NCBI RefSeq assembly: GCF_013283795.1
Contig: NZ_JABSOD010000010.1
Span: 62,001-126,000, forward strand
From: Rheinheimera lutimaris
GTDB lineage: Bacteria; Pseudomonadota; Gammaproteobacteria; Enterobacterales; Alteromonadaceae
Reading direction: 5' to 3'
Length of the DNA stretch: 64,000 nucleotides
Part shown: piece after piece, positions 569-7,791 of the stretch
Layout: each line of letters opens with the position of its first letter
Numbering within the stretch: position 1 is the stretch's first letter
The notes under the pieces: generated by a model
Database searches by the model: none
What the model was told of the DNA's origin: nothing
Seen by the model: only the letters and a program-made list of their open reading frames with translations
Made by a program: the position numbers and the translations under genes

Positions 569-1129
569 TCAGGCGGTCAAGCTGTCAAAAATGTGTAAAA
601 AAGTGGGGGCTTGTTGAATATGTAGCTGCATTTTTAAACGCCGTGCAATATCCTGGGCACTGATCACACCACGAATTTGGTGTGACTCACGATCTACCAC
701 TACACAATGTTGCTCACCGCTGGATTGCAGCGTGTTTACTACGTCGGCAATACTGCAGTGTTTCAGCTGTTGATAAGCCAGTGCTTTAATACGCTCACGC
801 GGGCGCATTAAATCTGCCACTTTAATATCATCACGACTGTCACCAAAGGCAACCCGACGCATAATGGCTTGATCAGAAAGCTGCTCCAGGTGAAGCAGGC
901 CCACCATTTCACCGTCATTATCTACGACCAGTTTTAGTTTGGCTTGTTCCTGCTGCATCATTTCCAGCGCATCGCGCGCTGAGCTGGTGCTGCTGATCAT
1001 ATTCGGCTGGCTGTGTTTAAAGTCGGTTACGACATGTAGTGCAGGTGAACTTAAGGTGGTGCCGTCAAAGTCGTCCGGTTGCACTAAATGATCAATGGCT
1101 TCTACAGGGTATAATGCTAATGTTTTCAT
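569..1129 (-). CDS. CBS-domain pair protein
   Basis: A 186-residue soluble protein made mainly of two CBS motifs: one around residues 45-95 (SSARDALEMM, VVDNDGEMVGLLHLEQL) and one around 110-175 (CSIADVVNTL, VVVDRESHQIRGVISAQDIARRL). CBS pairs usually bind adenine nucleotides and act as energy or ligand sensors; the partner here is unknown. The ATG at 1129 has a good Shine-Dalgarno (GAGGAAAGACC before ATG). An upstream in-frame start at 1213 would add 28 residues unlike the family and is rejected. It sits between two terminal-oxidase operons, which is suggestive of a respiratory link but not proof. Confidence 0.85.
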   Translation of the reverse strand: MKTLALYPVEAIDHLVQPDDFDGTTLSSPALHVVTDFKHSQPNMISSTSSARDALEMMQQEQAKLKLVVDNDGEMVGLLHLEQLSDQAIMRRVAFGDSRDDIKVADLMRPRERIKALAYQQLKHCSIADVVNTLQSSGEQHCVVVDRESHQIRGVISAQDIARRLKMQLHIQQAPTFLHIFDSLTA

Positions 1130-1678: not shown

Positions 1679-1789
1679 TTATATACCCGCCAGCAGCGAT
1701 TTTAGCAGCAGTGCTACCAGCGTTAGGCTGCATAAACCGGCCAGATACAATAGTACAAACCAGACAATTTTTGGCAGCGGGCGCTTCAT
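1679..1789 (-). CDS. DUF2474-type small membrane protein, distal gene of the cytochrome bd operon
   Basis: A 36-residue ORF starting MKRPLPKIVWFV, with one transmembrane helix (about residues 8-33) and a basic N-terminus. Its ATG overlaps the cydB stop as TGATG, and a very strong Shine-Dalgarno (GAGGAGGGC) precedes it. Size, position directly after subunit II and the pattern W-x(12)-L-x-LVALLLK resemble the DUF2474 proteins found after cyanide-insensitive bd oxidase genes (cioAB). The family's role is believed to be that of a small accessory subunit comparable to CydX. Translational coupling seen in the sequence supports expression together with cydB. Confidence 0.75.
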   Translation of the reverse strand: MKRPLPKIVWFVLLYLAGLCSLTLVALLLKSLLAGI

Positions 1790-2832
1790 CAGTAGCCCTC
1801 CTCAAAGTCTTCTACCTTACCGCGGAAGATATGATAACCCCACAGTGTGTAGGCAAGGATTAGCGGTACGAAAATCAGCACACCCGGTAACATAAAGCTT
1901 AAGCTGGCATCTGGTGCGGCTGCGGTGTAAAAACTCAGTTGCCGTGGCAACAGGTAAGGGAACAAACCAACCACCAGCCCGGCAAAAGCCAGTAAAAACA
2001 AGCTGGCAGCCAACCAGAAAGGCCTGCTTTCATGGCGGCGGTTGATATCGTTGTCGGCGGCAAACTGGCGCTGTACGCGGCCTAAATCGCGAAACAATAA
2101 GCGGGCGGCCAACAGCGCCAAAAGCGGCAGCAGCATTAATAGCAAAGTGTGTGTGCCGCCAAACCAGCGCTGGCGTATCTCCGGTTGCAGCCACAATGTC
2201 CACAGGCTAACCAGCAGCATCGACAGCATAACAAACAACAGCAGGCGCTGGCCGTAACGGGCAGCTTTTTGCTGAATGTCGCCACGGCTTTTCATTGTCA
2301 GATAAGTGCAGGCCAGCAGCGCATAACCGGCCATAACGGCAAGCCCGGTAAACAGGCTGAACGGTGTTACCCACTGTAAACTGGACAGCGTGATACTGTT
2401 GCTGTCGACCCCCTGTACCAACACGCCCAGCATTAAACCCTGGCAAAAGGCGGCCAGGCTGGAACCGATAGCAAAAGCGCGGTTCCACCACTGGCGTGAG
2501 GTGTTAGATTTAAAGCGGTATTCAAAGGCGACACCACGGAAAATTAAGCCGATTAACATCAGCATAATCGGCAGGTATAACAATGATGCAATAGCGGCAT
2601 AGGCCGGCGGAAAGGCGCCAAACAGGATAACGCCGCCAAATACCAGCCAGGTTTCGTTGCCGTCCCAGACATGAGAAATAGAGCGCATCAGGTGGTCGTG
2701 CTCGGCATCGGTGTTAAACCACGGATACAAAATGCCGATGCCTAAATCAAAGCCATCCAGCAGCACATACATCAGAATAGCAAAGCCCAATAGCAGGAAG
2801 TAAAACAGCGGTAAACCCAATTGTAATTCCAT
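1789..2832 (-). CDS. cydB: Cytochrome bd-type ubiquinol oxidase subunit II
   Basis: A 347-residue polytopic membrane protein (about nine helices) of the CydB family. The N-terminal stretch ILMYVLLDGFDLGIGIL and the following SHVWDGNETWLVFGGV are hallmark motifs. It pairs with subunit I to oxidise ubiquinol and reduce O2 to water in the inner membrane. The ATG overlaps the cydA stop (TGATG), and a DUF2474-like ORF overlaps its own stop in the same way, so the genes form a tightly coupled operon read leftwards. Its length is slightly below the 379 residues of E. coli CydB, as is usual for CioB-like proteins. Confidence 0.95.
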   Translation of the reverse strand: MELQLGLPLFYFLLLGFAILMYVLLDGFDLGIGILYPWFNTDAEHDHLMRSISHVWDGNETWLVFGGVILFGAFPPAYAAIASLLYLPIMLMLIGLIFRGVAFEYRFKSNTSRQWWNRAFAIGSSLAAFCQGLMLGVLVQGVDSNSITLSSLQWVTPFSLFTGLAVMAGYALLACTYLTMKSRGDIQQKAARYGQRLLLFVMLSMLLVSLWTLWLQPEIRQRWFGGTHTLLLMLLPLLALLAARLLFRDLGRVQRQFAADNDINRRHESRPFWLAASLFLLAFAGLVVGLFPYLLPRQLSFYTAAAPDASLSFMLPGVLIFVPLILAYTLWGYHIFRGKVEDFEEGY

Positions 2833-4238
2833 CAGTTTTGCTCCTGTCCCGGTTTAATCTGTTTGGCTAATGCCACTGCATAGCCTGCAGCTTTTACGCC
2901 GATAAGTTGTTGCTGCAGTTGCTCAGTGGAAGGCGGGCCTTTACGGATTAATTTGCGCATAAAATACAGATAGACGCCAAATAATAAACTGTACGTCAGC
3001 ACAAACAGCGTAAGAGAAAACAGCACCCGCTCGGCCGGCAGCGGCGATACTACATCCATAGTGCGTACCAAGCCCTGCACCAGCCAGGGCTGGCGGCCCG
3101 TTTCCACCACATACCAGCCGGCCAGTACCGCCAGTACACCAGTGGGTGCCAGATAGCTGCAGGTGGTCAAAAACCAGCGACTTTGATACAGCTTGCCACG
3201 CCAACGCAGATAAGCGCCGGTTAAGGCGACCAGAATCATCAGTACGCCGATGCCCACCATCACGCGAAATGAGAAAAACACCATGGCGACATTCGGCCGT
3301 TCATCCGCCGGTACGGCTTTTAACCCCATCAGTTCGCCATCCGGGTCGTGAGTTAAAATCAGGCTGGCCAGTTTGGGAATAGCAATTTCAAAATGGTTTT
3401 TTTCTGCCGCCTGGTCCGGAATAGCAAACAGCAGCAGCGGTGCGCCGGCTTCACGTTCCGGCCAAATGCCTTCCATAGCGGCTAGCTTAACCGGCTGATG
3501 TTCCTTAACATTCAGGCCGTGCAGGTCACCCACGTAGGCTTGTAGCGGAGTTAAAATCAGTGCCAGCCACAAGGTCATCGACAAGCCTTTGCGGGCCATG
3601 GTTTTGTGTTCGGTATGCAGCAATTGCCATGCACTGGTTGCCAGCACTACAAAGGTGGCAGTGATAAAGGCCGCTAACAGCATATGGCTGAAACGGTAGG
3701 GCATGGACGGGTTAAATATTACTTCCCACCAGCTGCTGACATGGAATACGCCGTCAACAATAATATGTCCGGCCGGGGTATGCATCCAGGAGTTAGCGGC
3801 GATGATCCAAAATGCTGAGATCCAGGTGCCGACAGCTACTACCACTGTCGCGAAGAAATGCAGTTTGGGCCCCACCCGTTGCCAGCCAAACAGCATAATA
3901 CCGAGAAAGCCGGCTTCAAGAAAAAACGCTGTTAATACTTCATAGGCCATTAGCGGCCCCAGTACCGCGCCGGTAATGCGGGAGAATTCTGAGAAGTTGG
4001 TGCCGAACTCATACGACAACACTATGCCGGATACCACCCCCATACCAAAGGTAATGGCAAATGGCTTGATCCAGAACTTGGCGAGTTGCAGATACACCGG
4101 TTTACCGGTTTTTAACCACAGGCCTTCCCAAATGGCAATTAAGGTCGCCAGACCAATGGTGATAGACGGGAAAATAATATGAAAGCTAACGGTAAAAGCA
4201 AACTGTAAGCGTGATAACAGTGCGGTATCCAACTCCAT
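2832..4238 (-). CDS. cydA: Cytochrome bd-type (cyanide-insensitive-like) ubiquinol oxidase subunit I
   Basis: A 468-residue subunit I carrying the heme ligands of bd oxidases. The N-terminal RLQFAFTVSFHIIFP has the proximal histidine at about residue 20, and GWYVVETGRQPW is the conserved segment near the end of the Q-loop. At 468 residues, compared with 522 in E. coli CydA, the quinol-binding Q-loop is of the short type seen in CioA. The start at 4238 (GGAGACGCTGAT before ATG) is chosen because the family begins MELDTALLSRLQF; an upstream in-frame start at 4295 lies in the preceding small ORF. Transcription probably comes from the sigma-54 promoter at 4388-4403. Confidence 0.95.
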   Translation of the reverse strand: MELDTALLSRLQFAFTVSFHIIFPSITIGLATLIAIWEGLWLKTGKPVYLQLAKFWIKPFAITFGMGVVSGIVLSYEFGTNFSEFSRITGAVLGPLMAYEVLTAFFLEAGFLGIMLFGWQRVGPKLHFFATVVVAVGTWISAFWIIAANSWMHTPAGHIIVDGVFHVSSWWEVIFNPSMPYRFSHMLLAAFITATFVVLATSAWQLLHTEHKTMARKGLSMTLWLALILTPLQAYVGDLHGLNVKEHQPVKLAAMEGIWPEREAGAPLLLFAIPDQAAEKNHFEIAIPKLASLILTHDPDGELMGLKAVPADERPNVAMVFFSFRVMVGIGVLMILVALTGAYLRWRGKLYQSRWFLTTCSYLAPTGVLAVLAGWYVVETGRQPWLVQGLVRTMDVVSPLPAERVLFSLTLFVLTYSLLFGVYLYFMRKLIRKGPPSTEQLQQQLIGVKAAGYAVALAKQIKPGQEQN

Positions 4239-4239
4239 A

Positions 4240-4344
4240 TCAGCGTCTCCGTTGTTGTAAATAACACCAGGCGGCAGGTGCCAGCGCGGTGGCAATCATC
4301 AGGCCCAGGGCCAGTACTTCAGTTATTAACACGCTGCTATTCAT
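4240..4344 (-). CDS. Small single-pass membrane ORF at the head of the cyd operon (unrecognised)
   Basis: A 34-residue ORF beginning MNSSVLITEVLALGL and ending YLQQRRR: one hydrophobic helix (about residues 5-29) followed by an arginine-rich tail. It starts 8 nt after a GAGAG Shine-Dalgarno, and its TGA ends 1 nt before the cydA ATG, with the cydA Shine-Dalgarno inside its last codons. It is the first ORF after the predicted sigma-54 promoter. It does not resemble CydX (no MWYFAWILG start) and I do not recognise a family. It could be an accessory subunit or a leader ORF that couples translation of cydA. Its small size makes chance possible. Confidence 0.5.
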   Translation of the reverse strand: MNSSVLITEVLALGLMIATALAPAAWCYLQQRRR

Positions 4345-4387
4345 AAAGCTCTCTCACTGCTGTTCAAACTAACGCCTGTTAAGCTAT

Positions 4388-4403
4388 AGCAAAATACTGA
4401 CCA
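4388..4403 (-). promoter_or_regulatory. Candidate sigma-54 promoter of the cyd operon
   Basis: Read on the minus strand the sequence is TGGTCAGTATTTTGCT. The -24 GG (4402-4401) and -12 GC (4390-4389) are separated by exactly 10 nt, and TTGC is intact, matching 8 of the most conserved consensus positions of TGGCACG-N4-TTGC. Transcription would start near 4377, about 33 nt before the first ORF. The adjacent divergent gene pair encodes a sigma-54-activating response regulator, and two palindromes lie about 97 and 132 bp upstream of the start, normal distances for an enhancer. Confidence 0.65.
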
Positions 4404-4466
4404 GGTTTACAGGTTAAAGTTATCTGTATGATATTCATCGTTTTATATTTTTAACTTGAGCTTGTT

Positions 4467-4516
4467 GTAAACAAGGTTTACGATTGTGGTCTGACTTGTG
4501 CGTAAACAGAGTTTAC
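4467..4516. promoter_or_regulatory. Pair of perfect palindromes, candidate enhancer/operator for the adjacent response regulator
   Basis: Two 15-bp inverted repeats of the form GTAAAC-N3-GTTTAC occur at 4467-4481 (spacer AAG) and 4502-4516 (spacer AGA), 35 bp centre to centre. A lone GTTTAC half-site lies at 4405-4410, touching the -24 element of the cyd promoter. The repeats sit between the cyd operon and the kinase-regulator operon. They are the right size for a Fis-type helix-turn-helix dimer such as that at the end of the regulator. The right-hand copy ends 1 bp before the GTG of the kinase gene, so autoregulation is also possible. Confidence 0.65.
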
Positions 4517-4517
4517 A

Positions 4518-6416
4518 GTGGAATTATCATTACTGTTTGAGATCAGCATGTTACTTACCAGCGCCTGCGCCGTGTTGCTGGCCGGCTGGTTATTGTGGCA
4601 GGGGCAGCGCCAGCGCGCTATGCCGGCATTGGCCGGTTTTGCCGCCATGATGGCGCTGTGGTGTGCCGGGCATATTGCCATAGTGCAGCAATGGCCGGTG
4701 TTGGGCATAGCGTTAGTGTTGGCTAATCCTTTGATGCCCATGTTTTTTTTACATTTTGCGGTGCAGTTTGTCGCCGATGGTAGCAAGCCACTGCCGGCGT
4801 GGTTGCAACGGGGCAAGCTGCTGCCGGTATTGTACGGCGTAACCGGCAGTATCATTCTGCTGAGTTGGCTTGGCGGCGGTGGTAAGGTGATTAGCAGCAG
4901 CGGTTTCAGTGCATTTTTTGTGTTTCAGGGCATTGGCTGGCTGAATTTGCTCTACACCGTGCTGCTGGGTATCGCCGCGCATCTCATATTGTGGCAGGGC
5001 TGGCGCATACACAGCGGCAATAAACGCCGCTCTATAGTGGCGATGTTTCTGGCCGGCGGCTGGGGCTTGTTGCTGGCGACCAGTTTTGTCTTTCCGTCGC
5101 TGGGACTGAACTGGTACCCGTATCCGATGCTGTTGCTGCCCAGTTATTTACTGCTGCTGGTGTACGGTGTGGTGCGGTATCAGGTGCTGGCTATTAATGC
5201 TTTTGCCAATAAAGCGCTGTTGTGGCTGGGTATGCTGCTGTTAGTGTTGGCGTTGATGGCGCTGGTCAGTGCCTTGCTGGGCCAGTTGGGCATGCAGGCA
5301 CTGTCTGCAGTGCCGGCCAGTCAGCTTTGGTTGTATTCTGCGTTGTTGTTGTTGCTGTCTGCTGCTTGTTATCAGCCCTTGTCACAATTAGCGCGGCGGT
5401 TGATTTACCCAGGCGGACAGCTGGATGAGAGCTTGCTGGCACATTGGCGTGCAGAATTACAGCAAGCACAAAGCTGGCAAGAGTTAGCGCTGCGGGCCGG
5501 TAATTTGCTGTCCGCCAGATTGCGCCGCGAGGTGAGTGTGCAACTGCCGGCAGCCGGCGACACCGCCACCGGTTTACATATTTTGTGCCGGCGTGATAGC
5601 AGTGGCTGGCAGTATCAGTTAACCGGGTGGGACGACGTGACACCAGGCTACCGCTTACAGGGAGAGGTGTTTGCCGCTTTACTACTCAGCAGTTGCCGCA
5701 TTTTAGAGCAATCGTTAAAGTTGGCTGACGCCGAGCGCAAGCGACTGGATCAGCAACACCTGGTTGAGTTGGGTGCCTTGTCGGCCGCTATGGCACACGA
5801 GCTGCGTAACCCGCTGAATATTATTGCGATGGCCGCCGCCACTACGCCGGCAGAAACACGCGGCCATATCCAACAACAACTGAAACGGGCCGATCGCCTG
5901 ATTGCTGATTTGCTCAGCTATTCCGGACAATTACAGTTGCAGTGCAGCCGGTTGCCGTTAAAGCCCTTGTTGCAAACTATTCTGAGCCAGCAGGACTGGC
6001 AAGGTGTGCAATGCCAGCTTAAGGTGCCGGATGGCCTGACACTATACGCCGACAGTTACCGCGTACAACAGGTACTGATAAACCTGACCGACAATGCGCT
6101 GGCATTTTGCCGCAACCAGGCACAAGCGCAGATCTGTATTGAAACACAGCACGACAACGGCGACATTTTGCTGTACGTGCATAACAACGGCCCCGCCATT
6201 ATGCCGCAGCAGCATAACAGCTTGTTTCAACCTTTTGTCAGTAAGCGTGCCGGTGGCAGTGGCCTGGGCCTGGCCATAGTGCGGCGTATTATGCAGGCGC
6301 ATGGTGGCGACGTTTGCCACCGCACAGATCTGGGTTGGCCGGTAAGTTTTGAACTGAAATTTAAGCAACAACCCTCAGCGCTGAGTACTCAAATACAGGA
6401 CAACATAAATGACTAA
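4518..6416 (+). CDS. Membrane sensor histidine kinase
   Basis: A 632-residue kinase. The first 290 or so residues contain about eight to nine hydrophobic helices with short loops, a membrane sensor rather than a periplasmic one. A cytoplasmic linker follows. The H-box MAHELRNPLN puts the phospho-accepting histidine near residue 427. It also has an N-box (LINLTDNALAF) and a G-box (GSGLGLAIVRRI). The gene overlaps the response regulator by 8 bp, so the two are cognate partners. The start is uncertain: GTG at 4518 directly abuts a palindrome, while an in-frame ATG at 4548 (MLLTSACAVLL) would fit a second possible sigma-54 promoter better. The layout recalls PrsK-type kinases, but no exosortase genes are near. 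Confidence 0.85.
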   Translation: MELSLLFEISMLLTSACAVLLAGWLLWQGQRQRAMPALAGFAAMMALWCAGHIAIVQQWPVLGIALVLANPLMPMFFLHFAVQFVADGSKPLPAWLQRGKLLPVLYGVTGSIILLSWLGGGGKVISSSGFSAFFVFQGIGWLNLLYTVLLGIAAHLILWQGWRIHSGNKRRSIVAMFLAGGWGLLLATSFVFPSLGLNWYPYPMLLLPSYLLLLVYGVVRYQVLAINAFANKALLWLGMLLLVLALMALVSALLGQLGMQALSAVPASQLWLYSALLLLLSAACYQPLSQLARRLIYPGGQLDESLLAHWRAELQQAQSWQELALRAGNLLSARLRREVSVQLPAAGDTATGLHILCRRDSSGWQYQLTGWDDVTPGYRLQGEVFAALLLSSCRILEQSLKLADAERKRLDQQHLVELGALSAAMAHELRNPLNIIAMAAATTPAETRGHIQQQLKRADRLIADLLSYSGQLQLQCSRLPLKPLLQTILSQQDWQGVQCQLKVPDGLTLYADSYRVQQVLINLTDNALAFCRNQAQAQICIETQHDNGDILLYVHNNGPAIMPQQHNSLFQPFVSKRAGGSGLGLAIVRRIMQAHGGDVCHRTDLGWPVSFELKFKQQPSALSTQIQDNIND

Positions 6417-7791
6417 CGGCAGAATTTTACTGGTGGACGACGAGCCGGCATTTCGTCAGTTGGCGCAAAGCTGGCTCAGCCAGAGTGGTTATCAGGTAGA
6501 AACTGCAGCCGACCTTGCTGCGGCGCGCCTGCAGCTTAGCCGCTTTGACGCTGATTTAATTTTGTTAGATTTATCTTTGCCACCGTTATTCGACCCACAG
6601 CATACACTGCAGGCATTAGCCGAATTCAGCCGCCGGCCGGTGATTATTCTTACCGGCCATGCTGAGCGCCAGTTGGCGCTGGATGCTATCGCACTGGGCG
6701 CCTGGGATTTTATTGCCAAACCGGTCGACCCGGATTTACTGGCGGTGGTGATAAAGCGCGCGCTGAATAAGCATCAGTTAGATACCGAATTACAACAACT
6801 GAAGCAGCAACAACAAACCGATACCGGCTTGCAGCGTTTAATCGGTGTGTCGCCGGCTATGACGGCCATGCGCAGCCTGATCCAACGTATTGCCCCCACC
6901 GATGTACGGGTGCTGGTTACCGGGCCGTCGGGTACCGGTAAAGAAGTGGTATCGCGGGCACTGCATGACCTGAGCCGGCGCGCCGGCGCGCCTTTTGTTT
7001 CGGTGCACTGTGGTGCTATACCTGCTGAGCTGCTGGAGAGCGAGCTGTTCGGTTATGTTAAAGGCGCCTTTACCGGCGCCGACAAAGACCGGCCGGGTTT
7101 ATTAAAACTGGCCGACAACGGCACCTTGTTTCTCGATGAAATTGGTGAAATGCCGCTGCCCATGCAGGTAAAGCTGTTACGGGTGCTGCAAGAGGGCACG
7201 TATTTTCCGGTAGGGGGGCGTGAGCAGCATAAAATTGATGTACGGCTTATTTCTGCTACCAATGCCAACTTGCCGCAGCTGGTGCAAAAAGGCCTGTTTC
7301 GCGAAGACTTATACTACCGCATCAAAGGCATCACCCTGGACACTGTGGCGCTGGCAGAACGGCGCCAGGACATACCGCTGCTACTGCAGTTCTTTCTGGA
7401 GCAGCTGCAGCGCCAACATGGCCAATTGCTTAAACTGGACAGCACAGCGCTAAGCTGGTTTTTACAACGTGACTGGCCCGGCAATATCCGCGAGCTGAAA
7501 AACACGCTTGAGAGCGTGGCAGCAGTGGCGCAGGGCGGCGTGATCAGCATGGCAGATATCAGCCTATTGCACCCGGAAGCGGTGGCTGCGGCTACTGCGG
7601 TACCAGAGGCGGTGACAGAGTCGTTGTTATTAGACCCTGCAGTACAACAACTGGAGATTCGCTTGATAACACGGGCGATGCAGCAAACCGGCGGTAATAA
7701 AACCCGCGCCGCATCGCTGTTGGGGTTGTCCAGACAAGGCTTGTTAAAAAAGTTGCAACGATACCAGCTCACTTATGCACAAATGCCCTAA
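6409..7791 (+). CDS. Sigma-54-dependent response regulator (NtrC family)
   Basis: A 460-residue activator with three domains. The receiver (1-120) has acidic pocket D10/D11, phospho-acceptor D54 and K104. The AAA+ domain (about 143-375) has Walker A GPSGTGKE (172-179), the sigma-54 contact loop GAFTGA (219-224) and Walker B TLFLDE. The C-terminal Fis-type helix-turn-helix (about 430-456) reads NKTRAASLLGLSRQGLLKKL. All parts needed to activate a sigma-54 promoter are present. Overlap with the kinase gene marks it as the cognate partner. The best local target is the divergent cyd operon; this link is inferred from promoter architecture. Confidence 0.92.
   Translation: MTNGRILLVDDEPAFRQLAQSWLSQSGYQVETAADLAAARLQLSRFDADLILLDLSLPPLFDPQHTLQALAEFSRRPVIILTGHAERQLALDAIALGAWDFIAKPVDPDLLAVVIKRALNKHQLDTELQQLKQQQQTDTGLQRLIGVSPAMTAMRSLIQRIAPTDVRVLVTGPSGTGKEVVSRALHDLSRRAGAPFVSVHCGAIPAELLESELFGYVKGAFTGADKDRPGLLKLADNGTLFLDEIGEMPLPMQVKLLRVLQEGTYFPVGGREQHKIDVRLISATNANLPQLVQKGLFREDLYYRIKGITLDTVALAERRQDIPLLLQFFLEQLQRQHGQLLKLDSTALSWFLQRDWPGNIRELKNTLESVAAVAQGGVISMADISLLHPEAVAAATAVPEAVTESLLLDPAVQQLEIRLITRAMQQTGGNKTRAASLLGLSRQGLLKKLQRYQLTYAQMP

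Follow-up and report, generated by a model that had tools for sequence, protein, structure and literature searches.

The window analysed here, a 64,000-nucleotide stretch of Rheinheimera lutimaris DNA, contains a 173-base intergenic stretch that separates two divergently oriented groups of genes and extends between the start of a histidine kinase gene at 4518 and the start of a small open reading frame, orfS, at 4344. Rightward from 4518, the kinase gene is followed by the gene for an NtrC-type response regulator; leftward from 4344, orfS is followed by cydA, cydB and cydX. The intergenic stretch contains two palindromes and a TGG-N8-TTGC element (Table 1). We refer to the kinase, the regulator, the sites, orfS and the oxidase collectively as the module. 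The gene for a CBS-domain protein (569-1129, minus strand) lies downstream of the cyd operon, and it accompanies the module at many further loci of Rheinheimera and g45. On the plus strand, 1-567 carries cytochrome c oxidase genes, namely the last part of an upstream frame and a COX4_pro subunit gene, which are directed toward the cyd operon; two oxidases are thus neighbours in the window.

Table 1. Positions of genes and sequence elements at the cyd and two-component locus, in window coordinates.
Feature	Position	Strand	Description
cydX-like small ORF	1679..1789	-	36 aa; DUF2474 (PF10617) E 0.0049, under the curated cut-off
cydB, cytochrome bd subunit II	1789..2832	-	347 aa; PF02322 E 3.1e-92; TIGR00203 over cut-off
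cydA, cytochrome bd subunit I, short Q-loop form	2832..4238	-	468 aa; PF01654 E 1.4e-169
orfS	4240..4344	-	34 aa hydrophobic small ORF, first in the cyd operon
Sigma-54 type -24/-12 element TGGTCAGTATTTTGC, facing cyd	4389..4403	-	GG-N10-GC spacing; the next base, 4388, is T
Degenerate FNR/ANR-type box (7/10)	4428..4441		3 mismatches, a match reached by 41% of shuffles
Promoter-proximal palindrome GTAAAC-AAG-GTTTAC	4467..4481		Exact; predicted enhancer site
Promoter-distal palindrome GTAAAC-AGA-GTTTAC	4502..4516		Exact; adjoins the kinase start codon; predicted second enhancer site
Membrane histidine kinase	4518..6416	+	632 aa; HisKA_7TM, HisKA, HATPase_c
NtrC-type response regulator	6409..7791	+	460 aa; receiver, AAA+ with GAFTGA, Fis-type HTH

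The palindromic sites in the genome

The initial annotation had described two perfect GTAAAC-N3-GTTTAC sites upstream of cyd, and both proved to be exact and to lie where it had placed them. The 4.08 Mb genome contains three exact copies of this pattern, the pair at the cyd locus and one more on another contig, within a long open reading frame. The third copy was judged to be a chance match; it falls inside a 795 aa open frame (L003), possibly recC. When one mismatch was allowed and each site was read on both strands, 17 sites were counted genome-wide against 21 for the reversed control pattern, and therefore no wider regulon is visible beyond the cyd locus. Eleven of the 14 one-mismatch sites were checked (L253 and two sites without a locus were left out), and nine of these fall within long stop-free frames. 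At L248 a second site was not found, and at L250 there was just a poor one at a different spacing; neither locus gave a tblastn match to the module proteins. A more permissive pair, defined as two sites 33-35 bases apart with at most three mismatches each, is present at a single place in the 64 kb window, the cyd locus, and was absent from 69,036 bases taken from 16 loci around other NtrC-type regulators.

Because the distal palindrome abuts the kinase start codon in the window, the regulator may also control its own operon. A lone GTTTAC half site is present at 4405-4410, just upstream of the -24 element; the 13 further Rheinheimera loci in the alignment do not show it there.

Conservation of the arrangement in relatives

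Searches with the regulator protein gave matches in 37 of 395 genomes of the same family, 21 of 394 of the same order and 1 of 369 of the same class, the class match being the window's own. The distinct regulator orthologs numbered 53 and came from 6 genera. We examined 52 of their loci (14 from Rheinheimera, 22 others from the same family and 16 others from the same order), related loci not being independent observations, and left out G356, which is truncated at a contig edge. Every one of the 52 has the kinase and regulator genes transcribed divergently from cydAB, together with two palindromes spaced 33-35 bp, neither of which departs from the pattern at more than 3 of 12 positions. The initial annotation had made its proposal depend on the palindromes recurring next to the same gene pair in relatives, and they recur at every locus examined (52 of 52). 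Both sites are exact in 12 of the 52 loci; outside Rheinheimera they are imperfect, with half sites that often read GTCAAC or GTTGAC, and in 9 of the 52 the mismatches summed over both sites reach 5.

Within the genus, 14 of 31 Rheinheimera genomes encode a regulator ortholog of at least 80% identity, the others reaching at most 49% among the matches listed. A CydA ortholog of at least 89% identity is found in the same 14 genomes, and other CydA forms show at most 54%, so that regulator and CydA co-occur exactly. All 14 Rheinheimera loci have the kinase-regulator pair divergent from orfS-cydA-cydB and carry both palindromes (GTAAAC-N3-GTTNAC) 35 bp apart; the GG-N10-GC spacing is kept, and the letters between these elements have drifted. 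In ten fetched cyd loci without the regulator, the palindrome pair was not found in the 500 bases upstream.

The sigma-54 type element and its spacing from the palindromes

Sigma-54 promoters have GG-N10-GC within an element resembling TGGCAC-N5-TTGC, and transcription from them begins about 12 nt past the GC. The initial annotation had assigned a TGG-N8-TTGC sequence at 4388-4403 on the minus strand to this class; the element and its GG-N10-GC spacing stand, and its coordinates are 4389-4403, with 4388 being the adjoining T. The distances given with it presuppose transcription from about 4377: on this assumption the start is some 33 nt ahead of the first ORF, and the palindrome centres are approximately 97 and 132 bp upstream. 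The motif alone occurs 22 times in the window against 20.15 expected, which is chance level. The case consequently rests on comparison, and its significance on the whole arrangement. RpoN is encoded in the genome, where one match was found.

In 66 loci from ten genera, 52 of them chosen by homology and 14 by motif, we then looked for T-GG-N10-GC at 20-149 nt, counted from where the proximal palindrome starts. The motif-chosen loci (group D) were selected by their palindromes, so just their other elements count as tests; L130 and L161 were excluded from this group because cydA is absent from the locus. The element lies 76-81 nt from the proximal palindrome start in 58 of the 66 loci and at 70 nt, approximately one helical turn shorter, in 5 loci of one genus, which places it where expected in 63 of 66. 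The remaining three loci, one from Algicola and two from Zooshikella, show GG-N10-GT instead, at the customary distance. A T-GG-N10-GC at any other distance was seen in 5 of the 66 loci. Among the homology-chosen loci, 51 of 52 keep the element at the near-fixed distance, and one has GT for GC. Nothing argues more strongly than this near-fixed distance that the element functions as a promoter and is linked to the palindromes. Compared with the TGGCAC forms of other genera, the -24 box of Rheinheimera, TGGTMA, is weaker; most loci from the two other families of the order have TGGCAC or TGGCAT.

A motif scan blind to gene content

The collection of genomes (84,980 species) was scanned for two palindromes 8-38 bases apart irrespective of neighbouring genes. 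This yielded 101 stretches, 80 of which were examined as loci, and the module was present in 26 of the 80. Ten of these overlap the homology set (9 of Rheinheimera type and 1 from Algicola); those new from the scan come from Marinomonas (12), Nitrincola (1), Hahella (1) and Zooshikella (2). When 18-21 bases separate the palindromes, 25 of 34 loci are the module. The other 54 of the 80 double-palindrome loci, from other taxa and including three contigs of one Legionella MAG, have no CydA or kinase match of at least 40%. Because these loci are unrelated to the module, the palindrome evidently serves other proteins elsewhere.

Some of these other loci carry the motif more than once. In the Legionella MAG the double palindrome is on several contigs (L134, L152 and L200), and in L199, L167 and L189 it is on several contigs or repeated within the locus, in each case without a match to the module CydA or kinase. 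In L174, from an unclassified MAG, it lies at 5872-5909, directly after the gene for another NtrC-type regulator (37% identical, 4467-5858).

A possible FNR/ANR-type box between the predicted enhancer and promoter

The consensus of the FNR/ANR box is TTGAT-N4-ATCAA. A sequence with at most two mismatches to it is found between the proximal palindrome and the promoter in 38 of the 66 loci (at most one mismatch in 28, perfect in 11), distributed as 9 of 14 in Rheinheimera, 9 of 22 in the rest of the family, 16 of 16 in the rest of the order and 4 of 14 among the motif-chosen loci. In most cases 30-32 nt separate the centre of the box from the GG that follows; in the genus with the shorter spacing the figure is 21 nt. 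The degenerate box of the window is at chance level, yet its spacing agrees with that of the well-matched boxes in relatives. In 28 of the 66 loci, including 10 of 10 Marinomonas and 12 of 20 g45, the box has three or four mismatches. Weak matches of this type mean little, since half of the regulator-less cyd loci (5 of 10) also contain a two-mismatch site within 500 bases. An FNR-like protein is encoded in the genome; cysteines cluster near its N-terminus, as is characteristic of FNR. By sequence comparison, the putative FNR-type box is a frequent but dispensable addition, and the enhancer and promoter are constant.

Conserved ATCA letters had raised the idea of an IHF site between enhancer and promoter. 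By eye, such a site was inconsistent across genera, and the FNR/ANR-type box was the better assignment.

The kinase and the regulator

The regulator has an intact GAFTGA loop, as the initial annotation had said. Its receiver domain (PF00072, E 3.9e-22) has D10, D11, D54 and K104 near-invariant in 26 sequences, and in the same number of sequences the AAA+ domain (PF00158, E 7.3e-69) has a near-invariant Walker A motif at residues 172-179 (GPSGTGKE) and GAFTGA at 219-224, and the Fis-type HTH (PF02954, E 6.4e-12) has near-invariant S441-L445, K447, K448 and R451. Its best NCBIfam matches were to equivalogs whose curated cut-offs it missed by far, with 398.3 of 714 bits for AtoC, 393.1 of 502.6 for the PEP-CTERM response regulator and 382.3 of 558.6 for NtrC.

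In the membrane part of the kinase, H52, H155, N70, P71, N143 and R171 are near-invariant in 28 kinases. These residues may form a ligand pocket, and the ligand might possibly be a quinone. We considered H52 and H155 as haem ligands; a reading of the helix order would put them at different depths. A structure model of the sensor (mean pLDDT 77.3) gave weak matches, mostly to seven-helix receptors (best E 0.026).

The oxidase and orfS

That CydA has the short Q loop is indicated indirectly, by alignment: the protein aligns in one continuous stretch to the 448 aa chain of 5doq and in two separate stretches to E. coli CydA (514 and 522 aa). In the CydA tree, regulator-linked CydA forms one group apart from unlinked paralogs in the drawing, on which node support is not printed. 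Nitrincola alkalilacustris CydA groups with that of Rheinheimera (support 0.875), and NCBI places the two in different orders. At this Nitrincola locus (L146), CydA is 85% and the kinase, over its first 279 residues, 77% identical to those of the window, which is closer than in other genera of the window's own family. The grouping despite different orders fits transfer of the module as a unit, and suggests that the module may have moved horizontally.

The orfS of the window had no match in NCBIfam, Pfam or PDB. By a permissive criterion that accepts any ATG-started ORF of 22-60 aa after the promoter, 64 of 66 loci (for example L034-L046, L093-L114 and L226-L241) have such a hydrophobic ORF ahead of cydA, with a length of 30-53 aa. 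In 8 of 10 Marinomonas loci, the orfS-like ORF ends 55-89 bases before the aligned cydA start. In Burkholderia cenocepacia, cydP is a small membrane protein gene directly upstream of cydA whose product is proposed as an oxidase subunit and, according to the available part of the report, is confined to Burkholderiales (PMC9104464). Its place in the operon makes orfS at least a positional analogue of the cydP described there; by this analogy its product is a possible oxidase subunit.

Discussion

In our view the locus very likely constitutes a self-contained switch, a two-component system that depends on RpoN and is dedicated to the short-Q-loop bd oxidase encoded by orfS-cydA-cydB-cydX. The initial annotation had proposed a quinol oxidase under an RpoN-dependent two-component system, and the conserved sites with their near-fixed geometry, the co-occurrence within the genus and the presence of rpoN all support it. 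From comparison of the sequences, we infer the following course of events. The membrane histidine kinase, which probably reads the state of the electron-transport chain, would phosphorylate its NtrC-type partner. The regulator is predicted to bind both palindromes and to loop over approximately 70-80 bp, and its AAA+ domain with the GAFTGA loop would open sigma-54 RNA polymerase at the TGG-N8-TTGC promoter. Transcription of orfS-cydA-cydB-cydX would then supply a short-Q-loop bd quinol oxidase. Through the palindrome beside the kinase start, the regulator would feed back on its own operon, and in many relatives the FNR/ANR-type site in the loop would add an oxygen input.

The same features could be read in other ways. 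If the palindromes served solely as operators through which the kinase-regulator operon represses itself, cyd would depend on some other activator or on a sigma-70 promoter, and the sigma-54-like element would be incidental. The distal palindrome is indeed about 25 bases or less from the aligned kinase start in most loci (it is farther away in L105-L108, L112, L114, L227, L231 and L237), and weak sigma-70-like pairs, at 4406-4435 and 4503-4530, are oriented toward the kinase. However, no sigma-70-like site facing cyd was found by a simple consensus scan of 4240-4620, the distance from the proximal palindrome to T-GG-N10-GC is near-fixed across genera in which the spacer has diverged, and an enhancer, unlike an operator, requires twin sites held in constant phase with a -24/-12 element. 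We therefore regard operators serving the kinase-regulator operon alone as unlikely.

We consider it very unlikely that another regulator, such as a TyrR-like protein or a further one of the Fis-HTH kind, occupies the palindromes and that the two-component system is a passenger. Regulator and CydA co-occur exactly in the genus and persist together over ten genera, and where the regulator is missing, as in the ten fetched cyd loci, no palindrome pair was found upstream. These observations outweigh the resemblance of the half site to the TyrR box (TGTAAA-N6-TTTACA) and the occurrence of the double palindrome in unrelated taxa without the module (the 54 of 80 scanned loci). Against our main reading, the genome has 11 other strong sigma-54-activator matches, so that another activator could use the palindromes. 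In favour of mere chance, in the form of common hexamers and a frequent TGG-N8-TTGC happening to lie near a cyd operon, stands the chance-level count of the promoter motif by itself; conservation of the whole arrangement refutes this explanation, and its probability is negligible.

Beyond the RpoN-dependent switch itself, a more far-reaching picture is possible, and we offer it tentatively, as rather doubtful in its entirety. The sensor might detect inhibition of the respiratory chain and turn on an inhibitor-resistant bd oxidase, with an FNR-family oxygen gate in the loop in many lineages; the module (kinase, regulator, sites, orfS and oxidase) might be mobile as one cassette, and orfS might be a CydP-like extra subunit outside Burkholderiales.

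Two-component systems of the NtrB/NtrC, AtoS/AtoC and ZraS/ZraR types combine upstream sites with a -24/-12 promoter. The regulator here is like theirs in having a receiver, an AAA+ domain with GAFTGA and a Fis-type HTH; the present system differs from them in that its target is a terminal oxidase and its sensor a multi-helix membrane domain (HisKA_7TM). On the sequence evidence, the circuit is apparently the known enhancer mechanism of NtrC-type regulators, conserved and dedicated, on an unexpected target. Unlike ArcA, which is not known to be a sigma-54 activator, the regulator here is of NtrC type and is encoded adjacent to cyd. RoxSR, of the RegBA type, is in the accounts available likewise a two-component system acting on an oxidase, the cyanide-insensitive one; unlike the regulator here, RoxR/RegA is small and is not known to have an AAA+ domain.

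In the accessible text of one report, cydAB is controlled by ArcBA, FNR, Rex and CRP (PMC7739888). The E. coli case as given in that text resembles the present one: the bd oxidase operon is subject to FNR and to a kinase system there (PMC7739888), and many relatives here have a putative FNR-type box. RoxSR acts on cyanide-insensitive oxidase genes in Pseudomonas aeruginosa and is proposed for the bd oxidase of Burkholderia cenocepacia, in the part of that paper available (PMC9104464). FisR of Cupriavidus and Acinetobacter acts with sigma-54, is encoded divergently from the operon it activates, and is linked to sulfide, a respiratory poison. In the available sections of the source it drives sulfide-oxidation genes and, unlike the regulator here, is not part of a two-component system; cydAB is sulfide-induced there, and FisR is not named as its activator (PMC7315123). 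Evolved lines of Cupriavidus necator have a change upstream of cydA2B2 together with rpoN mutations. We rejected this as evidence for the circuit, because the rpoN changes came without a gain in CO tolerance and the authors, in the portion of their paper accessible, predict a new sigma-70 promoter (PMC10164946). Term searches of the available text of two sigma-54 surveys gave no mention of cyd or oxidase (PMC4641369, PMC12316311). No sigma-54 two-component system for a bd oxidase was found in the literature as far as it was accessible, mostly as open papers, which is weak evidence of absence.

Sigma-54 control would set this operon apart from the control by ArcBA, FNR, Rex, CRP or RoxSR described for bd oxidase genes in the sources available. 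The locus offers a compact test system with one kinase, one regulator and, by motif search, one target operon, whose geometry has been held by evolution, and the FNR-type site in the loop provides a way to ask how oxygen sensing and an enhancer combine. If the proposed circuit is true, a promoter that is tightly off or on would hold back or release an alternative route to oxygen.
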